64,000 bases of DNA from Dehalobacter sp. DCA (lineage in GTDB: Bacteria > Bacillota > Desulfitobacteriia > Desulfitobacteriales > Syntrophobotulaceae): positions 1,798,001 to 1,862,000 of the forward strand of contig NC_018866.1 of assembly GCF_000305775.1 (NCBI RefSeq), read 5' to 3'. The position numbers and the translations under genes were made by a program. The notes under the pieces are model-generated. The model saw only the letters and a program-made list of their open reading frames with translations, made no database searches and was not told where the DNA came from. Numbering within the stretch: the stretch's first letter is position 1; each line of letters opens with the position of its first letter. This document shows, in pieces, positions 475 to 38,979 of the stretch.

Positions 475-494
475 AGCCCGGAGTGATCCGGGCT
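475..494 (-). terminator. Rho-independent terminator
   Basis: Perfect 8-bp stem (AGCCCGGA/TCCGGGCT) with a 4-base loop. On the minus strand it is followed by TTTCTTATTTT. It is the best candidate end for the transcript that carries the 873-2135 gene. Confidence 0.7.
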
Positions 495-872: not shown

Positions 873-2135
873 TTAAGAAAAGTCTTTTACCATAGTAATT
901 TGGCCAGGGTCAAAACTCTGTGCAATCCTTTGATTAATAGCAACATCAATAATATTTTTGCATAGTGGATTTACTTGAATAAGTTTGACGAATCTAGAAA
1001 AGTCCAGTATTCCAAATTTTACAGCCAATTTCCCAAAAAGCTCGTCCGCAAATGACGATGAGAGAACTCCAACTTCTGACATGTTAATACTGACAGCAAA
1101 TCCAGGATTTTGTTTCATTAGATTTATGACGAGATTCCTAATCCGTTCTCCAGTTGGACGATTTCCAAAATTGGAAGCATAATCATGGAGATTAAAAACT
1201 AAATCGCCCTTTTCATCTTCATACATAGTTTCAAAAATATTTATTGGGTTATGCCCCCATAATGCTTTCGGTAAATCAATTGGTTTTTCAGTATTAAACT
1301 GTAAATCTACCATGGTACCGTAAGTCGGCGGAAAATGCCTTTGTGATTTTATTCTTCCACCGTTTACATACACAGTGCCTTTACCTGAATATATACTTAA
1401 AGAACTTTCACTAGCTTGTGCAATTGCTACAGTACCTGCAAGTCCATTTCCCTGACCATTCGCTGGATTACTAGTTATCCCCTTTTTAATAGAGTGTTCT
1501 ATTAAAAACCTATCTGACTCAATTTCTGGAAAAACTTTTTTCATATTATGCGGGATTCCGACTCCTGAATCACACACAATTATTGACATCATATGTCTAT
1601 CTTTATTTATTAGCACTTGAAGCCATCCAACCTTTACCCCTGCATGAACCAAAATATTTCCAGCTATTTCATTTAAGGCCCATTCAAAAGCTTGAGGTAC
1701 TCCGTCTGCAAAAACTAATTGTTGTAAACAAACTCCTATTGCGCCATTTATTACCTCATTTAGTTCCTCATCATTTCTGAAAGAATGTAACGCAAAATTT
1801 TGATACCTATTACCATGTGGAAAATCATATTTTTCCGGATCTAAGTAGTGTAGCCAGCCCAGTCTTTCGGCATATCCAGTTGTTTCTCTATCTTTAGGTG
1901 GAATTACTTGAATTACAGTACCTCTTGTATTCTTTAGTCTATCCATCTCCGCTATCAAAGGAACTACTCCATTTGGATAAATCAATCTCACTTTACTAAG
2001 ATCAAGGATAATCTGATCATATTTTTCATTTACTGTGAGCTGATAAAACTTTTTCTTAAGATCAACGACATTAACCCATCCTAATTTATCCCCGTATAAT
2101 CCAACAACATTATTCTGCGCGTATGCAAAAGACAT
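873..2135 (-). CDS. Three-domain STAS / GHKL-ATPase / STAS-like (DUF4325) protein
   Basis: 420 residues. Residues 1-110 resemble a STAS or anti-anti-sigma fold (YDQIILDLSKVRLIYPNGVV). Residues about 140-290 form a histidine-kinase-like ATPase: N box EWALNEIAGNILVHA, G1 DSGVGIP, G2 GQGNGLAG. Residues about 330-410 match the STAS-like DUF4325 pattern (SINMSEVGVLSSSFADELFGKL). No kinase phospho-acceptor His domain or membrane segment is seen. The start is fixed by AGGAGGGG ten bases upstream. The gene has its own promoter at 2167-2195, just after a terminator, so it is transcribed apart from the phage late operon, as expected for prophage cargo. Fusing an anti-sigma-type ATPase to STAS domains suggests a partner-switching sensor or a defence role. 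The function is inference. Confidence 0.75.
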   Translation of the reverse strand: MSFAYAQNNVVGLYGDKLGWVNVVDLKKKFYQLTVNEKYDQIILDLSKVRLIYPNGVVPLIAEMDRLKNTRGTVIQVIPPKDRETTGYAERLGWLHYLDPEKYDFPHGNRYQNFALHSFRNDEELNEVINGAIGVCLQQLVFADGVPQAFEWALNEIAGNILVHAGVKVGWLQVLINKDRHMMSIIVCDSGVGIPHNMKKVFPEIESDRFLIEHSIKKGITSNPANGQGNGLAGTVAIAQASESSLSIYSGKGTVYVNGGRIKSQRHFPPTYGTMVDLQFNTEKPIDLPKALWGHNPINIFETMYEDEKGDLVFNLHDYASNFGNRPTGERIRNLVINLMKQNPGFAVSINMSEVGVLSSSFADELFGKLAVKFGILDFSRFVKLIQVNPLCKNIIDVAINQRIAQSFDPGQITMVKDFS

Positions 2136-2166: not shown

Positions 2167-2195
2167 ATTTTAGCTTAATTTCTAACTTTTTACAA
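2167..2195 (-). promoter_or_regulatory. Sigma-A promoter of the STAS-ATPase gene
   Basis: On the minus strand, -35 TTGTAA (2190-2195) and -10 TAAAAT (2167-2172) are separated by 17 bases. They lie about 30 bases upstream of the ATG at 2135 and directly after the hairpin at 2203-2225. A second possible pair (TTGACT at 2324-2329, TATATT at 2300-2305, spacing 18) lies upstream of that hairpin. Confidence 0.6.
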
Positions 2196-2202
2196 AATAA
2201 AA

Positions 2203-2225
2203 ACAGCCCCATTTCGTAGGGCCGT
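2203..2225 (-). terminator. Hairpin with T-tract
   Basis: ACAGCCC (2203-2209) pairs with GGGCCGT (2219-2225) with one mismatch. On the minus strand the run TTTTTATTTT follows. It insulates the 873-2135 gene from upstream transcription. A smaller hairpin (CGGAG/CTCCG) is nearby at about 2235-2249. Confidence 0.55.
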
Positions 2226-2386
2226 TTTCGTGACCGGAGTAATCTCCGATAAAAAGGAAACTAGTTCTTTACTGAACTTATTATTTATTTTGTACTATAA
2301 ATATATGCTTTATACCACTGGTTAGTCAACATATTTTTTAAAAATATTAATAAAATCTTTGATCTTTAGAAAAATGCGGCAAAAAA

Positions 2387-2412
2387 GCCCCGAAGGATCT
2401 CTCCCTCGGGGC
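2387..2412 (-). terminator. Terminator of the phage late operon
   Basis: GCCCCGA (2387-2393) pairs with TCGGGGC (2406-2412), with extra pairs inside, and TTTTTT follows on the minus strand. It sits just after the stop codon of the last lysis gene (2422) and so marks the end of the long minus-strand late transcript. Confidence 0.75.
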
Positions 2413-2421
2413 CTTTTCACA

Positions 2422-2793
2422 TTACATTGTTATTTCTGGTGTGGGTGTTACAGATTCGGTACGTGTTACCGTATTCCAATCTTTCTTAAATTCGTTTACA
2501 GCTGCTTCAACCAATGATGTCCATTGCTCATCCGTCAGCTTAATCCCATGCTGTGACGCCATACTTTTAACGGTGTTAAACGCGAGCTGGAATTTGTCGG
2601 CGTTTGCGAGTCCGCTTTGCTGGGCAAATTTAACCGCAATACCGGCAATGTTCTTAGCGATTTCAATCTGCTTTGCGGTCAAATGCTTTTTAATTAGCGA
2701 TACCAAATAAGCACCGACAAAAGGAATGACAATAGTAATGACAATCTGTAATAGCTCGTTTAATAGAGCTTGAATTAAGGCTTGAGTATCCAT
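2422..2793 (-). CDS. Phage holin, LLH family
   Basis: 123 residues with one N-terminal hydrophobic segment (about 12-34, LLQIVITIVIPFVGAYLVSLI) followed by a charged helical tail (KKHLTAKQIEIAKNIAGIAVKFAQQSG). This matches the LLH/Phage_holin_6 type of small lysis proteins. It would permeabilise the membrane so that the endolysin encoded just upstream reaches the wall. GGAGG precedes the ATG at 2793. It is the last gene of the late operon. A second, unrelated holin-like protein is encoded at 3502-3903, so one of the two may be a spanin-like helper or antiholin. Family assignment is by pattern, and the division of roles is inference. Confidence 0.75.
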   Translation of the reverse strand: MDTQALIQALLNELLQIVITIVIPFVGAYLVSLIKKHLTAKQIEIAKNIAGIAVKFAQQSGLANADKFQLAFNTVKSMASQHGIKLTDEQWTSLVEAAVNEFKKDWNTVTRTESVTPTPEITM

Positions 2794-2829
2794 GATATAC
2801 CTCCATAAAAAATACCGCTCTCAGGCGGC

Positions 2830-3498
2830 TTATTTACACAGCTCTAAAGTTTTCCTTGCCGTATCAAACCGGTCTGTACCTACGATGTTTGTAGTGTTCT
2901 GGATCGGCTTGACAGGGCTGCCTATAACATAGGCATGTTCTACATTGGCGAGATCGCCCGGAGCCGTCAGCGCCCTTCTCTCGGCCTTTAAAAATCGCGC
3001 GAGGTAAGCAGCAGCCATTTCATCATCACCAGGGCTACTAAAAATAACTTCCGGTATCATGATCGGTTTATCCTGGACCGGTCCGCGCTGATTAAGTATC
3101 CCTAAGAAATTAGATGCGTTGATGTCATTGCGATTAGTCCATGGAGCAACTCTGACTTCAAAATGCAGATGTACGCCGGTACTGTTGCCGGTAGTCCCCA
3201 TGACTCCGATCTGCTGACCTTCCTTGACTGCTGCGCCCTGACTGACGAGAACTTTCGATAAGTGAGCATGGACCACGTCGTATTTTCCAGCATATCTCAG
3301 GATGATATAATTACCCCATCCTGCCGGGTCCCAACCGACTTTAAGCACGGATGCATCTCTAAAGGCGCATACAGGGACGTATTGACCGTCTGCGCCGATG
3401 AAATCAACTCCGGTATGATAACCTTTGGTGTATTTGATTTTGCACAGTGGGTCCTTGTAGCAGTTTGTTATTTTAGCATTTTTAACTGGCATAGCCAT
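2830..3498 (-). CDS. M23-family endolysin with CWB2-like C-terminus
   Basis: 222 residues, without a signal peptide. Residues about 20-130 form a LytM/M23 zinc metallopeptidase: GYHTGVDF supplies the first His/Asp ligands and HLHFEV the HxH motif. This class cuts peptidoglycan cross-bridges or stem peptides. The C-terminal 90 residues (with VEHAYVIGSPVKP and VGTDRFDTARKTL) look like part of a clostridial cell-wall-binding type 2 repeat, which would anchor the enzyme to the wall. The start is supported by GGAGGGG eight bases upstream of the ATG at 3498. It lies between the two holin genes. Because it lacks a signal, it should need a holin for export. Confidence 0.85.
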   Translation of the reverse strand: MAMPVKNAKITNCYKDPLCKIKYTKGYHTGVDFIGADGQYVPVCAFRDASVLKVGWDPAGWGNYIILRYAGKYDVVHAHLSKVLVSQGAAVKEGQQIGVMGTTGNSTGVHLHFEVRVAPWTNRNDINASNFLGILNQRGPVQDKPIMIPEVIFSSPGDDEMAAAYLARFLKAERRALTAPGDLANVEHAYVIGSPVKPIQNTTNIVGTDRFDTARKTLELCK

Positions 3499-3501
3499 AG
3501 C

Positions 3502-3903
3502 CTATTCCCCTCCTTTCTCCTGTAGTTGGGCTAACACCTTTTTGATCGGCGGCGGTAACGGCACCCTAAGAATACCGAGATTTTCAGTTATTGATATTCC
3601 TTCCCTGGCAATATAGAAATAAAGAGCCATCATCCGGAAGATCGGCTCATCGTTTCCCAGCAACTGATCTAGCATGACGGCAATTGCTATGACCATAATT
3701 ATGATCCCTTTTCTGATTCCACCCCAGAACATAACCTCGCTGTCAACCTTATGTGTCTTTACTGCCCCCAGGAACCCCGTAATGTAATCGATAACCATAA
3801 AAGCAATAAGCACGCGCAATGCTACATCCCACCCTCCCAGCCAGTAGCTTATGAATGTTCCGACCGTAGCCACAATTGCGCTGAAACTATATTCTTTTTC
3901 CAA
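3502..3903 (-). CDS. Phage holin, toxin-secretion/lysis (holin 4) family
   Basis: 133 residues with three to four hydrophobic segments (about 9-25, 30-48, 65-85, 88-105) and the family signature DYITGFLGAVKTHKV ... WGGIRKGI. This is typical of the TcdE/UtxA/phage phi29-like holin family. Its gene ends three bases before the endolysin start. It would form the membrane lesion that sets lysis time. Together with the LLH-type protein at 2422 the cassette holds two holin-like proteins around one endolysin. Confidence 0.85.
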   Translation of the reverse strand: MEKEYSFSAIVATVGTFISYWLGGWDVALRVLIAFMVIDYITGFLGAVKTHKVDSEVMFWGGIRKGIIIMVIAIAVMLDQLLGNDEPIFRMMALYFYIAREGISITENLGILRVPLPPPIKKVLAQLQEKGGE

Positions 3904-31204: not shown

Positions 31205-32038
31205 GTGATAAGGCAAAATGCCCACAAATACTCGGTATCAGCAATGTGTAAAGTCCTACAAGTGAATCGCAGTAGTTATTACTACAAATCAACCTATCAG
31301 GAAGTTGAAGACGATGTTGAGCAGCACGTTATCGAGATTTTTGAATCAAATCAACGGGTCTATGGTACCAGAAAGATTAAGATTGAGCTTCAAAAGAAGA
31401 ATTTAACAGTCTCTCGTCGCCGAATCGGTCGATTGATGAAGAAAAATGGCTTAGTTTCAACATACACAGTAGCTCAATATAAGCCATTCAAAACCAAATG
31501 CAACGAAGCTGAAATCAAGAATGAATTGAATCGGGAATTTGAAAAAGCGGTGCCATTGGAGACCGTTGTTAGCGACCTGACATATGTTCGAGTAGGAACC
31601 AAATGGCATTATATCTGCCTTCTCGTTGATTTATTTAATCGGGAGATAATTGGACAGAGCTGTGGCAAAGCGAAAGACGCTGCCCTGGTATATCGGGCTT
31701 TTGCTAGCGTGAAGTCCAATCTACATAATATTAGGATGTTTCATACAGACCGTGGCAGCGAGTTTAAAAACCAGCTAATTGATGAAGTAATTTCAACCTT
31801 TAATATTCAGCGTTCTTTGAGTATGAAGGGCTGTCCTTATGATAACGCCGTATCCGAGGCTACCTTCAAACTAGTTAAGACAGAGTTTGTGAAAAACCGA
31901 CGCTTTGTATCACTGGAACACCTAGAGAATGAATTGAAGTCTTATATTAAGTGGTTCAATGAAAAGCGAATTCATTCAACACTAGGCTACCTTAGTCCTC
32001 TGGAGTATAAAACCATTTACCTTAACAAATCTGTCTAG
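31205..32038 (+). CDS. IS3-family transposase OrfB (rve/DDE integrase domain)
   Basis: 277 residues. N-terminal HTH_21 region (VSAMCKVLQVNRSSYYYKST ... NQRVYGTRKIKIEL), then the integrase core with the DDE residues visible in VVSDLTYVR, MFHTDRGSEF and DNAVSEATFKLVKTE, and the C-terminal signature WFNEKRIHSTLGYLSPLEY. All catalytic motifs are present, so the element should be active. It ends 18 bases before the right end of the IS. Confidence 0.92.
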   Translation: MIRQNAHKYSVSAMCKVLQVNRSSYYYKSTYQEVEDDVEQHVIEIFESNQRVYGTRKIKIELQKKNLTVSRRRIGRLMKKNGLVSTYTVAQYKPFKTKCNEAEIKNELNREFEKAVPLETVVSDLTYVRVGTKWHYICLLVDLFNREIIGQSCGKAKDAALVYRAFASVKSNLHNIRMFHTDRGSEFKNQLIDEVISTFNIQRSLSMKGCPYDNAVSEATFKLVKTEFVKNRRFVSLEHLENELKSYIKWFNEKRIHSTLGYLSPLEYKTIYLNKSV

Positions 32039-34302: not shown

Positions 34303-34962
34303 GTGTTTAATGTGTTTGATAAAGAAAAGTTCAAAAATCTATTAGAGAAAGCGCGTGGAGATAGATCGAATGAAGATTATTCTCGCGATAGCGGAGTTTC
34401 TCGTGCTTATATTTCTAATTTCTTGAACCTAAAAAGAGATATTCCGCCAACTCCTGATATTTTAAAAAAGTTGGCTGAAACAGCCTACGGAAATGTAACA
34501 TATAGAGATTTTATGGATGCTGCAGGATATCTAAATTTAGATGAGGTAAATAAAGAAATTATTACATTAGAAACAAAATTAAAAGAAATTTATGAAATAA
34601 TTTGTGTTAAGAGAAAAGAATCTGAAGTATTACGCCAAAACATCCAAGATCTTGAAAATAACGCAGGAACTATAAATCAACAAGAGTTAATCATGCATAT
34701 TGATATTTGGCAAAAACAGATTGAACAATTAGAACAAGAGTTTTATTCAATAACTTGCCAGTTAGATCAGTATAAGGAAATTCGAATTGATATTATCGAT
34801 ATAAACTCAGAAAGCTGTTCTAAAGAAGGGGTTGTTACATCTTCCAATTCAGATATACGTGAAATCGCAAGAGCCGGTAACAACATGACCTCCGATGAAG
34901 CAGCTGAGCTTAGAAAATTTGCTGAAAGGTTATTCCCAGATGCATTCAAAAAAAATTCCTGA
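34303..34962 (+). CDS. Phage repressor (ImmR/CI-like, no peptidase domain)
   Basis: 219 residues from a GTG at 34303 (a second in-frame GTG at 34312 is possible). N-terminal XRE domain (LLEKARGDRSNEDYSRDSGV ... SRAYISNFLNLKRDIPPTPD), then a long coiled coil (about 80-165, with KKEIITLETKLKEIYEI and RQNIQDLENNAGTINQQELI). It has no S24 auto-cleavage domain. The gene just downstream, overlapping by 23 bases, encodes an ImmA-type metallopeptidase. This pair fits the ImmR/ImmA design, in which the peptidase cuts the repressor at induction. Confidence 0.72.
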   Translation: MFNVFDKEKFKNLLEKARGDRSNEDYSRDSGVSRAYISNFLNLKRDIPPTPDILKKLAETAYGNVTYRDFMDAAGYLNLDEVNKEIITLETKLKEIYEIICVKRKESEVLRQNIQDLENNAGTINQQELIMHIDIWQKQIEQLEQEFYSITCQLDQYKEIRIDIIDINSESCSKEGVVTSSNSDIREIARAGNNMTSDEAAELRKFAERLFPDAFKKNS

Positions 34963-35980
34963 TAAACTAAGATATAATCGAACGTTAAGTATTGCACAGA
35001 AGTTTATACTTGAACAAAATATAAATAGATTACCTGTAGATCCATTTAAATTAACAGCAAGAATTGATTTACCGATAGTTTCAGCATCAGAATACGCAAT
35101 GGCTATGAATTGTTCTTTTCAACATGTTATTAGGGATATCATTAAGAGTAATGATGGTACAGCAAAATGCGTAGATAACATGCAGTTTATTATTTATAAC
35201 GAAAGAGTGGCGAGTAAAGGACGAATAAGATGGACGTTACTGCATGAAATTGGGCATGTTCGGCTAGGTCATTTAATTGACTTTGAAGAGACCAGAGTTC
35301 AAAGGGCAGGCTTAACAAAAACCGAATATGAAGTATTAGAAAAAGAGGCAGACTGTTTCGCTTCTCGAGTTTTGGCTCCTCCGATAGTATTAGAGGCTCT
35401 TAAAGTTGATAATGCCACAAGGTTAATAACATTATGTGGCCTATCAAGATTAGCAGCAGAAAATAGATATAAAGATTTTTCTGCCAAGTTAAATAAAAGA
35501 AGATTTCCTGACCTTCTTGAAATAAAAATCGAAAGAAATTTCCATGATTTCATCCACAAAAAATATTGCGTAATATGCGGTCATTCATTTGTTATCGAAA
35601 ATGCCAAGTATTGCCCGATCTGCGGGAAGAAAAGGGTCTATTGGGGGGATGGAAAGATGATTTATTCAGGTTATGAATTAGATGATAAAAGTAAAGCCAA
35701 GGTTTGTCCGAGATGTGAAAATGAGGAAACATCTCTTGATGGAGAGCATTGTATTATCTGTGGGAGTCATTTAGTAAATAGATGTACAAATGATGATAAT
35801 GAAAATAATCATAGTTATGAGCCTTGTGGTATTCTTTTACCCGGTAATGCAAGATATTGTTATAAATGCGGTAGTCAATCCACGTTTCTCAGTAATAAAA
35901 TTTTAAGACGGTGGAGTGAATCACAAGCCGATGAGCAAGTAGCATCAACTCATGATAACTTCGGGGATATCCCGTTTTAA
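34940..35980 (+). CDS. ImmA/IrrE-family metallopeptidase fused to zinc ribbons
   Basis: 346 residues from the ATG at 34940, with AAAGG ten bases upstream. A longer frame to 34895 lacks a site. Residues about 30-180 are the ImmA/IrrE domain with TLLHEIGHVRLGH (HEIGH at about 102-106) and the downstream KEADCFASRVLAPP Glu/Ala motif. Residues about 205-330 hold three zinc-ribbon-like units: CVICGHSF/YCPICGKK, VCPRCEN/CIICGSHL and RCTN/YCYKCGSQ. Ordinary ImmA proteins are about 150-250 residues without ribbons. The ribbons may bind DNA or the repressor. It is probably translationally coupled to the repressor and should act as its inactivating protease. The ribbon function is inference. Confidence 0.78.
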   Translation: MHSKKIPDKLRYNRTLSIAQKFILEQNINRLPVDPFKLTARIDLPIVSASEYAMAMNCSFQHVIRDIIKSNDGTAKCVDNMQFIIYNERVASKGRIRWTLLHEIGHVRLGHLIDFEETRVQRAGLTKTEYEVLEKEADCFASRVLAPPIVLEALKVDNATRLITLCGLSRLAAENRYKDFSAKLNKRRFPDLLEIKIERNFHDFIHKKYCVICGHSFVIENAKYCPICGKKRVYWGDGKMIYSGYELDDKSKAKVCPRCENEETSLDGEHCIICGSHLVNRCTNDDNENNHSYEPCGILLPGNARYCYKCGSQSTFLSNKILRRWSESQADEQVASTHDNFGDIPF

Positions 35981-36211: not shown

Positions 36212-37363
36212 ATGAAATTAAAAGAACGTGCCGGACAATATATTTATCAATCATCAGGATATTCTGCTTATATCCCTAACCCACTACCTCCAAATCATCC
36301 CATCGAATACAACACTGAATTAATAAACCTTTTATCATCAGCTGATAGAAAACTAGGTAGGCTTGACGGAATTACCCAAACTTTACCTAACCCTGATCTA
36401 TTTGTAGCAATGTATGTAAAAAAAGAAGCAGTTTTAAGCTCTCAAATTGAAGGAACACAAGCGTCCTTAATAGATGTCCTCGATGAAGAAGATAACATAG
36501 AAAAAGAAAAAAGCGTTGAAGAAGTTGTGAATTATATCGCATCTATGAATTATGGACTTGAGCGATTACATAGCTTACCTATTTGTTTAAGACTTATTAC
36601 AGAAATCCATGAAATTCTATTAAAAAATGTTCGCGGAAGTGAGCGAAACCCGGGAGAATTTAGATGTTCACAGAACTGGATAGGTCCTGCCGGTTGTTCT
36701 TTGTCCACCGCTACATTTATACCACCTACTCCTGAAGCCATGATAGACTCAATGAATAATTTAGAAATATTTATCCATGAAAAAGACGAAATACCACCTT
36801 TAATTAAAATTGGTTTAATTCATGCCCAATTTGAAACTATTCACCCCTTTTTAGATGGCAACGGAAGAATGGGTCGTTTACTAATAACCTTTTGGCTTTG
36901 TCAACAAAAAATACTTGGTAAGCCATTACTATATTTGAGTTATTATTTTAAACGAAATAGAATTGAGTATTATGATAGGCTTATGGATATTAGATTAAAG
37001 GGTGACTGGGAGAATTGGTTAGTCTTTTTCTTAAAAGGAATTGCAGAAGTTTCCGATGAGGCCATTGATACCGCAAAGAAGATTCTTTCTTTAAAGGAAA
37101 AATACACTTATTTAATAAACCGTACGATAAAAAACGCGTCAAACGGAATTAAGCTTCTAGATAAACTCTTTGAACATCCAATGATAACAATTAGTAAAGT
37201 TGCTGATTTATTGGATACATCTTATCCTACTGCCAACAACTTGGTGAATCAATTTTGTCGTTTAGGAATATTAGACAATCCAAGCCAGCAAAGAAATAAA
37301 AAATTCAACTTCAGGGAATACATTGATATTTTACAAGAGGGAACAGAGCTAATAAATAAATAG
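36212..37363 (+). CDS. Fic family protein (class II, with winged-helix C-terminus)
   Basis: 383 residues. The inhibitory helix motif is SSQIEGT at about 76-82, which matches S/TxxxEG, placing it in the class whose inhibitory helix precedes the Fic core. The catalytic motif HPFLDGNGRMGR starts at about residue 211 and has the His, Asp/Glu-type and Gly/Asn/Arg residues of active AMPylases. The C-terminal region (MITISKVADLLDTSYPTANNL) is a winged helix. Such proteins transfer AMP to Tyr/Thr/Ser on partner proteins and are often toxins or regulators. No antitoxin gene is adjacent, so it is self-inhibited. CAGGAG precedes the ATG. It lies between the immunity region and the integrase, a cargo position. 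Confidence 0.85.
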   Translation: MKLKERAGQYIYQSSGYSAYIPNPLPPNHPIEYNTELINLLSSADRKLGRLDGITQTLPNPDLFVAMYVKKEAVLSSQIEGTQASLIDVLDEEDNIEKEKSVEEVVNYIASMNYGLERLHSLPICLRLITEIHEILLKNVRGSERNPGEFRCSQNWIGPAGCSLSTATFIPPTPEAMIDSMNNLEIFIHEKDEIPPLIKIGLIHAQFETIHPFLDGNGRMGRLLITFWLCQQKILGKPLLYLSYYFKRNRIEYYDRLMDIRLKGDWENWLVFFLKGIAEVSDEAIDTAKKILSLKEKYTYLINRTIKNASNGIKLLDKLFEHPMITISKVADLLDTSYPTANNLVNQFCRLGILDNPSQQRNKKFNFREYIDILQEGTELINK

Positions 37364-37390
37364 ACTCTCATTCGGTTGGAGGATAAATCT

Positions 37391-38806
37391 ATGGCCGAAA
37401 AGGAAAAGAAGAGAAAAAAGAAAAAAGGTAACGGCGAAGGTACGATCTACCAATTACCAAATGGTAAATGGAAAGGTCAGGTTACCCTTGGGAAAGATCC
37501 TAATACCGGGAAATTGATTCGCCCCCCGTTTCATGGTAATACCAGAAAAGAGGTTGCCGATCAGATTGCGGAGGCATTAGATCGGGTTAATAAGAAAACC
37601 TTTATCAACCCATCCCAAACAACTTTTGAAGATTGGACAAGCACTTGGAAAACCGCTTCCAGAATAAAGGGAACCACCTGGAGAGGTTATGAAACTTGTT
37701 TAAGGAATCATATCTTTCCCGCGTTAGGTGATTACACTTTAGCCGAGCTGGAGAAAGATCCCCACATTATTCAAGTGTTTTTAAATACCATGGAAAAGAC
37801 TCCACGGAAAGACGGAAAGATAAGTAAAATTCTAAAAGAACTTAGAAAAGAAAAAGGATTAGAACAAATTGATGTAGCAGAAGAACTGAGGATTGAATTA
37901 TCTGTCTACGTTTCTTGGGAGGAAAATAAAGATAGGCCGGATTATGAAATGCTTAAAAAGATTGCCGACTTCTACCGTACCCCCCTTAAGCAGTTTCTGT
38001 TATCGCCGGCTTCGATAATTAAAGCTAATCGTATACTGCATAGTATTCTTGAATATGCAAAGAGACGAAAAAAACTATTCTCTAACCCTGCTGATGATAT
38101 GGATCTTCCTGAAGCCGATACTGAAGAAACCCAAACTTTAGCAGATGATGAGATGGACAGGTTTCTAACTAACATAATGGAATATCGGTATTTTGCAGGA
38201 TACTTGCTTTTGATCGGTTCGGGGATGCGCCCTGGAGAAATGGTGGCTTTAAAATGGCATAATGTTAATCTAAAAGATAGAACTGTCACAATTGAAGAAA
38301 CCCGGGAAAGAGTTTTGAATGAAGATATTGATGCAAAAACCAAAACAAAAGTTATTAACCAAGATCCAAAAACAAAAAAGAGTAAAAGAACTCTTGTTAT
38401 TCCCGGAAGAGTAGCTGCAGCACTCAGAATCCATCGTTACAATCAAAATAAAGAGAAGGTTCTGGCAGGGGATCAATATAATGATGAGGGTTATGTCTTC
38501 GCTACGCCCACCGGGGAGCCGGTAGAGTATAGAAACTTCTACAGATCCTTTCAAGCATGCTTAAAGAGAAGTGATATACCCCCTGTGAAGCTATATGCAC
38601 TCCGTCATACCTTCGCAACGATCCTTTTGGAAGAAGGAGAAGACTTAAGGGTAATACAAGAAATACTCGGACATACGGATATTAGGACTACGAAAATCTA
38701 TACCCGTGTCCGCAGAAAATCAAAAGAAAAAGCTGCCATAAAAATCGACGGCCATCTCAGAAAAAAGAAAAAATCTTCAGAAAAAGAGACAGCGTTGCAA
38801 CGATAA
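37391..38806 (+). CDS. int: Tyrosine integrase with an embedded XRE-type HTH domain
   Basis: 471 residues from the ATG at 37391, with GGAGG eight bases upstream. A TTG at 37376 is less likely. Order: N-terminal arm-binding domain (about 10-70, [20 protein letters not shown]), first part of the SAM-like core-binding domain (about 75-140, [20 protein letters not shown]), an inserted Cro/CI-type domain (about 144-206: [20 protein letters not shown] ... [20 protein letters not shown]), the rest of the core-binding domain ([20 protein letters not shown]), then the catalytic domain. Catalytic residues: R in [13 protein letters not shown] in [12 protein letters not shown]-x-x-R in [10 protein letters not shown] (Tyr where many enzymes have His), H in ILGHTD and Y in TTKIYTRV. 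It integrates and excises the prophage at the adjacent tRNA-Thr gene. Confidence 0.9.
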
Positions 38807-38904: not shown

Positions 38905-38979
38905 TGGAGCCGATGGTCGGAATCGAACCGACGACCTGCTCATTACGAGTGAGCTGCTCTACCCCTGAGCCACATCGGC
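38905..38979 (-). tRNA. tRNA-Thr (anticodon CGT); prophage attachment site
   Basis: On the minus strand, acceptor stem GCCGATG/CATCGGC, a D arm with GCTCAGGGGTAGAGC, anticodon stem-loop GCTCA-CTCGTAA-TGAGC (anticodon CGT), T arm GTCGGTTCGATTCCGAC and an encoded CCA give a 75-base tRNA for Thr codon ACG. Its 3' end faces the integrase, so the 3' half is the likely attR core. A second copy of that 3' segment, expected at attL, is not found in the window, so the left phage end lies beyond position 1. Confidence 0.93.

Follow-up and report, generated by a model that had tools for sequence, protein, structure and literature searches.

Close to one end of a prophage of Dehalobacter sp. DCA, a gene on the minus strand encodes a protein of 420 residues in which an ATPase of the GHKL type lies between two STAS-like domains. 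The gene was found in a window of 64,000 nucleotides (the whole stretch of DNA that was analysed), and it raises two related questions: to which known signalling system does such a fusion correspond, and of what use might it be to a prophage or to the lysogen that carries it?

Prophage setting and transcription signals

The prophage is complete and measures 41.2 kb. The genome has one copy of the fusion gene, which is located some 3.2 kb from the left end of the element, where it separates the lysis genes from the attachment site. The right boundary is a 45-bp repeat, whose left partner (genome positions 1795723-1795767) is free of mismatches and lies 2,278 bp to the left of the window start; for this reason a search for attachment repeats inside the window alone found none, and the pair was recovered by a search of the whole genome. 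The original prediction had described the gene as prophage cargo following the lysis genes, and this was borne out both by the att-bounded element and by the position of the gene past the holins and the M23 endopeptidase. The gene is not part of the operons for structure, lysis or replication; it has terminators on both sides and a promoter recognised by consensus only. Neither a toxin gene nor an immune operon adjoins it. The features of the locus, in window coordinates, are as follows.

475-494 (-): terminator-like hairpin downstream of the fusion gene
873-2135 (-): STAS-GHKL-STAS fusion gene, 420 aa
2146-2153 (-): ribosome-binding site AGGAGGGG, 10 nt upstream of the ATG, from sequence
2167-2195 (-): weak promoter-like site (9/12) immediately ahead of the fusion gene
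2190-2293 (-): structured, AU-rich leader of 104 nt, or candidate small RNA, with a terminator hairpin (2229-2199) at its end
2379-2420 (-): strong intrinsic terminator (hairpin 2420-2379) after the holin gene that closes the lysis genes
2422-3903 (-): lysis genes, namely holin (LLH), M23 endopeptidase and holin (phage_holin_4_1)
37376-38806 (+): tyrosine integrase of the prophage, adjoining the right attachment copy
38905-38949 (no strand): 45-bp attachment-site repeat, 3' end of the tRNA-Thr gene

Terminator-like sites are more frequent than expected by chance (6 observed against 2.1 +/- 1.5), and the fusion gene, standing alone between terminators, is probably its own transcription unit, as far as the sequence can indicate. 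It had been proposed that the gene has its own promoter after a terminator. The terminator part of this proposal stands, with the hairpin at 2420-2379 and a second one at 2229-2199, just upstream of the gene; the promoter would be a consensus match, either a promoter-like site (TTGACT-N18-TATATT, 10/12, at 2329-2300) ahead of the 104-nt leader or the weaker one listed above, of a class that is no more numerous than chance (10 observed, 10.3 expected). The leader folds at a predicted -33.3 kcal/mol (z of -5.4 against shuffles) and could function as an attenuator or represent a small RNA; among phages and relatives its conservation amounted to short fragments at most, and a search of Rfam gave nothing near the curated threshold.

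Several other genes of the prophage deserve mention. A Fic protein (PADLOC SoFic, E 2.8e-123; 36212-37363, plus strand) is encoded directly before the integrase and represents a second defence-like cargo gene. A gene for an HTH protein is followed by one for an M78 peptidase (34303-35980, plus strand); the peptidase is IrrE N-terminal-like, is CapP-like according to PADLOC, and has a zinc-ribbon-like C-terminus. Pairs of the ImmR/ImmA (CapH/CapP-like) kind are a known type of damage sensor, and this pair is probably the prophage's own ImmR/ImmA-like damage-sensing repressor control. An insertion sequence with a transposase-type integrase core (rve, HTH_21; 31205-32038, plus strand) lies near the replication genes. 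Between the left attachment site and the window, the prophage also encodes a protein of 577 residues (L063:17950-19683, minus strand) which has no match in Pfam or PADLOC and contains two copies of a motif like LYEEVW...VAKRYGVSD...IPxPPxGYWA.

Domains and motifs of the fusion protein

The open reading frame is real, as confirmed by some 30 full-length relatives, among them a protein of a Nostoc plasmid that is 42% identical over 95% of the length. Its domains are detected by sequence profiles to very different degrees. In Pfam, DUF4325 is clear at residues 329-391 (E 2e-14), HATPase_c is weak and under the curated cut-off at residues 147-255 (E 2.5e-4), and the N-terminus shows a trace of STAS only, where the SpoIIAA model of NCBIfam reaches residues 10-77 (E 0.0018). 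The two weakly detected domains were settled by structure models. The full-length AlphaFold2 model, for which 28 family members were used, has high confidence over almost its whole extent (pLDDT 89.5, pTM 0.85); its central domain matches SpoIIAB chains in Foldseek with a target TM of up to 0.69 and a probability of 1.00, and the C-terminal domain matches viral DUF4325 models of BFVD with a target TM of up to 0.85. A separate model of the N-terminal 112 residues (pLDDT 93.4) matches SpoIIAA with a TM of about 0.6 and a probability of 1.00. The predicted layout of STAS, GHKL ATPase and STAS-like domain is therefore found as three folds in a confident model, the central one with the ATPase fold on which that prediction depended. 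The parts of the protein are encoded as follows.

1800-2135 (-): N-terminal STAS domain, with Y53-P-N-G and no Ser/Thr at the phospho-site position
1248-1799 (-): GHKL/Bergerat ATPase (kinase) domain, residues 113-296 (SpoIIAB match, HATPase_c)
1641-1682 (-): N box WALNEIAGNILVHA, residues 152-165; W152, N155, E156, N160 and H164 invariant in 30/30
1551-1571 (-): G1 box DSGVGIP, residues 189-195; D189 and G191 invariant in 30/30
1434-1457 (-): G2 box GQGNGLAG, residues 227-234; G229, G231 and G234 invariant in 30/30
900-1202 (-): C-terminal STAS-like DUF4325, residues 312-412 (Pfam, VapS profile match, BFVD)
1053-1061 (-): predicted phosphorylation site Ser359-Ser360-Ser361, at the start of helix 360-374

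The N, G1 and G2 boxes had also been claimed from the sequence, and their patterns are invariant or nearly so across all 30 relatives, in every one of which the key residues are kept. A serine cluster is kept in all of them as well, at the beginning of helix 2 in the C-terminal STAS domain, the place at which SpoIIAA, CapS and VapS receive their phosphate: SSS is present in 24 of the 30, S361 in 30/30 and S360 in 28/30. Position 360 is Ala in two fused relatives, and some split relatives (described below) have Ala or His at position 360 or 361. Neither Pfam nor the structure model revealed an HTH or wHTH in the 420 residues. A literature search for DUF4325 returned two incidental mentions only.

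Kinase-substrate pairs and split relatives

The closest precedent comes from immune regulation. CapK (HTH-STAS-GHKL) is activated by single-stranded DNA (ssDNA) and phosphorylates CapS (STAS-wHTH), whereupon immune operons are derepressed (Chambers et al., EMBO J 2026, PMC13373217). A like kinase-STAS pair controls the VapC toxin of the phage-protective system VapK-VapS-VapC; in E. coli, VapKSC gives protection against a phage, and CapKS lies upstream of immune operons (PMC13373217). In the same work the phospho-acceptor serines were located where helix 2 of the STAS fold begins (CapS S54, VapS S48), the ssDNA-contact aromatics at W68 of CapK and F54 of VapK, and the catalytic N-box asparagine at N218 of CapK (PMC13373217).

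A search of the PDB with the single 420-residue sequence gave no match. The family profile, on the other hand, found Escherichia VapS (9Z7O) over the C-terminal domain (E 1.2e-5) and, in hhalign, aligned residues 40-287 with a Deinococcus VapK-like kinase from a kinase-STAS-PIN operon (probability 98.4, E 9.9e-15), an alignment that spans both the STAS and the GHKL parts. A further match at its C-terminus was to the STAS half of the split pair in Streptococcus prophages (E 5.8e-6). Ser359-361 aligns with the region of VapS Ser48; the homology to CapK/VapK-type kinases, the intact N160 and the G1 and G2 boxes are further elements of such a module that the fusion has. As to the ssDNA contact, the residue corresponding to W68 of CapK and F54 of VapK appears to be Leu51, judged by the column aligned with W53 of the Deinococcus VapK-like protein. 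Only 3 of the 30 fusions have an aromatic there. Two residues further on, Tyr53 is aromatic in 25/30, and it may or may not do the job of the CapK/VapK aromatic.

The fusion shares with VapK-VapS a STAS-GHKL kinase, a short STAS substrate with a hydroxyl residue starting its second helix, homology over both halves and an occurrence on mobile elements; it differs in being a single gene without a toxin, whereas VapKSC has separate VapK and VapS genes and an adjacent VapC/PIN toxin. With CapK-CapS it has in common a STAS-GHKL kinase that would act on a STAS protein and, by hypothesis, a DNA-damage signal, but it has neither the HTH of the kinase nor the wHTH of CapS nor an adjacent immune operon; since these DNA-binding domains are missing, a role as a repressor that binds DNA in the manner of CapS is excluded. 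SpoIIAB-SpoIIAA and RsbW-RsbV consist of the same two folds, and the kinase-substrate chemistry of the fusion is presumably like theirs. These are, however, separate proteins with a sigma factor as third partner and one STAS only, and the fusion has a second STAS ahead of its kinase. CapKS and VapKSC are a better precedent than sigma-factor partner switching, although the fusion belongs to neither and corresponds to their kinase-substrate half.

The two halves are also encoded by neighbouring genes. Such pairs are present on plasmids of Alicyclobacillus and Deinococcus, in the Marinitoga phage MPV1, in a phage of Clostridioides and in prophages of Streptococcus, and the fusion is accordingly of the Rosetta-stone type. 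In the Streptococcus prophages the split pair follows directly after the lysin and precedes paratox, the same conversion position as that of the fusion gene here; in the Francisella phage KIRK and in MPV1 it lies between repressor and integrase. Three PHROG families, none of which has an assigned function, are distant relatives and not the same close family: phrog_3364 corresponds to the split kinase half and phrog_9989 to the STAS half from Streptococcus, whereas phrog_5816, with 441 positions, matches the kinase and DUF4325 parts.

A search for homologues and their neighbourhoods yielded about 30 full-length fusions, from Cyanobacteria, Pseudomonadota, Nitrospirota, Planctomycetota, Bacteroidota, Bacillota, Armatimonadota and others, including plasmid and phage copies. 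One copy of the module was found per genome checked, with the exception of G465, which has a second, partial match. The family does not have the distribution of housekeeping genes, as relatives occur in 2 of about 300 other genomes of the same phylum, a protein search of two sampled genomes of the same genus found none, and in 60 relatives nothing exceeded the cut-off of DUF4325; yet many relatives are orphan chromosomal genes amid ordinary genes, most are not in prophages, and the family is therefore not confined to mobile elements. No neighbour is conserved among the approximately 30 loci, where neighbours were predicted with a simple ORF heuristic and some predictions in G+C-rich loci are spurious, and so no output partner is indicated. 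Some fusions nevertheless adjoin integrases, restriction-modification genes, DNA methylases or an LmuA-like gene. On a human-gut 'phage' contig (L008:2029-7648) the fusion lies between hsdR, a restriction-type helicase (type I REase-like), and hsdM, a type I DNA methyltransferase; in L047 it is beside a DNA methylase gene, in L030 beside the LmuA-like gene, and in the viral contig L046 it adjoins an endolysin.

In a tree of the STAS-GHKL part, the 30 fusions stand on one side of a branch and seven split relatives on the other with a support of 92/92, which is below the starred level, several of the split rows being long-branched; the fusion apparently had a single origin. The phage and viral copies (that of the window, L008, L046 and L047) are scattered at separate places, so that the gene was taken up by phages more than once.

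A proposed single-chain switch and its alternatives

The reading that we favour, with a probability of about 0.55, is that the fusion unites in one chain the kinase-substrate module known from CapK-CapS / VapK-VapS, and is carried as lysogenic-conversion cargo. The N-terminal STAS and GHKL domains would correspond to CapK/VapK, and a signal would be bound in the groove between them; by analogy this would most likely be ssDNA arising from DNA damage or phage infection. Driven by ATP, the kinase would then phosphorylate a serine of Ser359-361 in the C-terminal DUF4325, either in the same chain or in a dimer partner. The N-terminal STAS has no serine at its phospho-site, and the C-terminal domain is for that reason the natural substrate. 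The phosphate would alter the binding surface of the C-terminal STAS, so that a partner protein is released or captured, as with SpoIIAA, CapS and VapS. As the protein has no DNA-binding domain and its gene no neighbouring toxin, this output partner would have to be encoded elsewhere, in the host or in the prophage. The idea of an autonomous partner-switching unit, put forward in the original prediction, is upheld in so far as the likely substrate domain is on the kinase's own chain. Within the prophage the gene would be lysogenic-conversion cargo, probably expressed in the lysogen from a promoter of its own, and the positions of the split pair in Streptococcus prophages, KIRK and MPV1 and of the fusion in L046 fit a gene that is useful to the lysogen.

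A broader proposal, which is less likely than not, is that one-protein STAS-GHKL-STAS switches activated by DNA damage are widespread, act on unlinked host targets, and have been captured repeatedly by phages to protect or tune the lysogen. If true, the immune-control module of CapKS/VapKSC would have an orphan branch that is in no defence catalogue. The two-gene form linking DNA damage to immunity has been known since 2026, and it is the single-chain, orphan form that is new here. Its presence in many phyla and in prophages would show how the switch is packaged for transfer, and so compact a protein would allow sensing, phosphorylation and partner release to be studied without rebuilding a pair.

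What the output might be is a matter on which several readings differ. One specific version, compatible with the single-chain switch, is protection of the lysogen: ssDNA or DNA damage would trigger self-phosphorylation, and a growth-arresting host factor would be activated or released in an exclusion resembling abortive infection. The phage protection by VapKSC and the location of CapKS upstream of immune operons (PMC13373217) argue for it, as do the relatives beside hsdR/hsdM (L008), a DNA methylase (L047) and an LmuA-like gene (L030) and the conversion-region location in several prophages. With no effector gene adjoining here and none conserved beside the relatives, many of which lie amid ordinary genes, and with no PADLOC model for such a system, this version is possible, but the odds are somewhat against it. 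A regulator serving the prophage itself, which would respond to DNA damage and adjust induction, the timing of lysis or a prophage repressor/antirepressor through its STAS domain, is unlikely. DNA damage is indeed both the signal of CapK and the classic inducer of prophages, split modules lie between repressor and integrase in KIRK and MPV1, and the gene adjoins the lysis genes here; yet terminators lie in between, the fused family is mostly outside prophages, and the HTH and M78-peptidase pair of the ImmR/ImmA kind gives the prophage a sensor of its own, which speaks against the fusion protein as the induction switch. It is considerably less probable still that the protein interferes with a sigma-factor switch of the host, by sequestering the sigma factor or phosphorylating a SpoIIAA/RsbV-like protein of sporulation or stress. 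The nearest solved folds are those of SpoIIAB and SpoIIAA, and such a GHKL kinase could act on host STAS proteins, but its substrate domain is already fused to it, relatives are widespread in phyla that do not sporulate, such as Cyanobacteria, Nitrospirota and Planctomycetota, and the profile finds VapS first and aligns with VapK over both domains.

Virtually no credence can be given to a fourth identity, namely that of DrmA, a part of DISARM, under which PADLOC labels the protein. Its model PDLC02567 does match all 30 fusions, with E values down to 7e-41, but only over model positions of about 25-394 of 1750. The DrmA helicases of about 1,000 genomes, which are other and longer proteins, begin to match at position 415 or beyond; a fused DrmA, with both parts in one open frame, was sought in these genomes and not found. 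The helicase body (model positions 415-1740) is absent from the fusion protein, and the DrmA identity was rejected. PDLC02567 is apparently composite, its front being a STAS-GHKL-STAS module, as a result of which stand-alone members of the family are falsely flagged as DISARM DrmA, and catalogue entries of this kind should be read with caution, as the family is currently mislabelled there.
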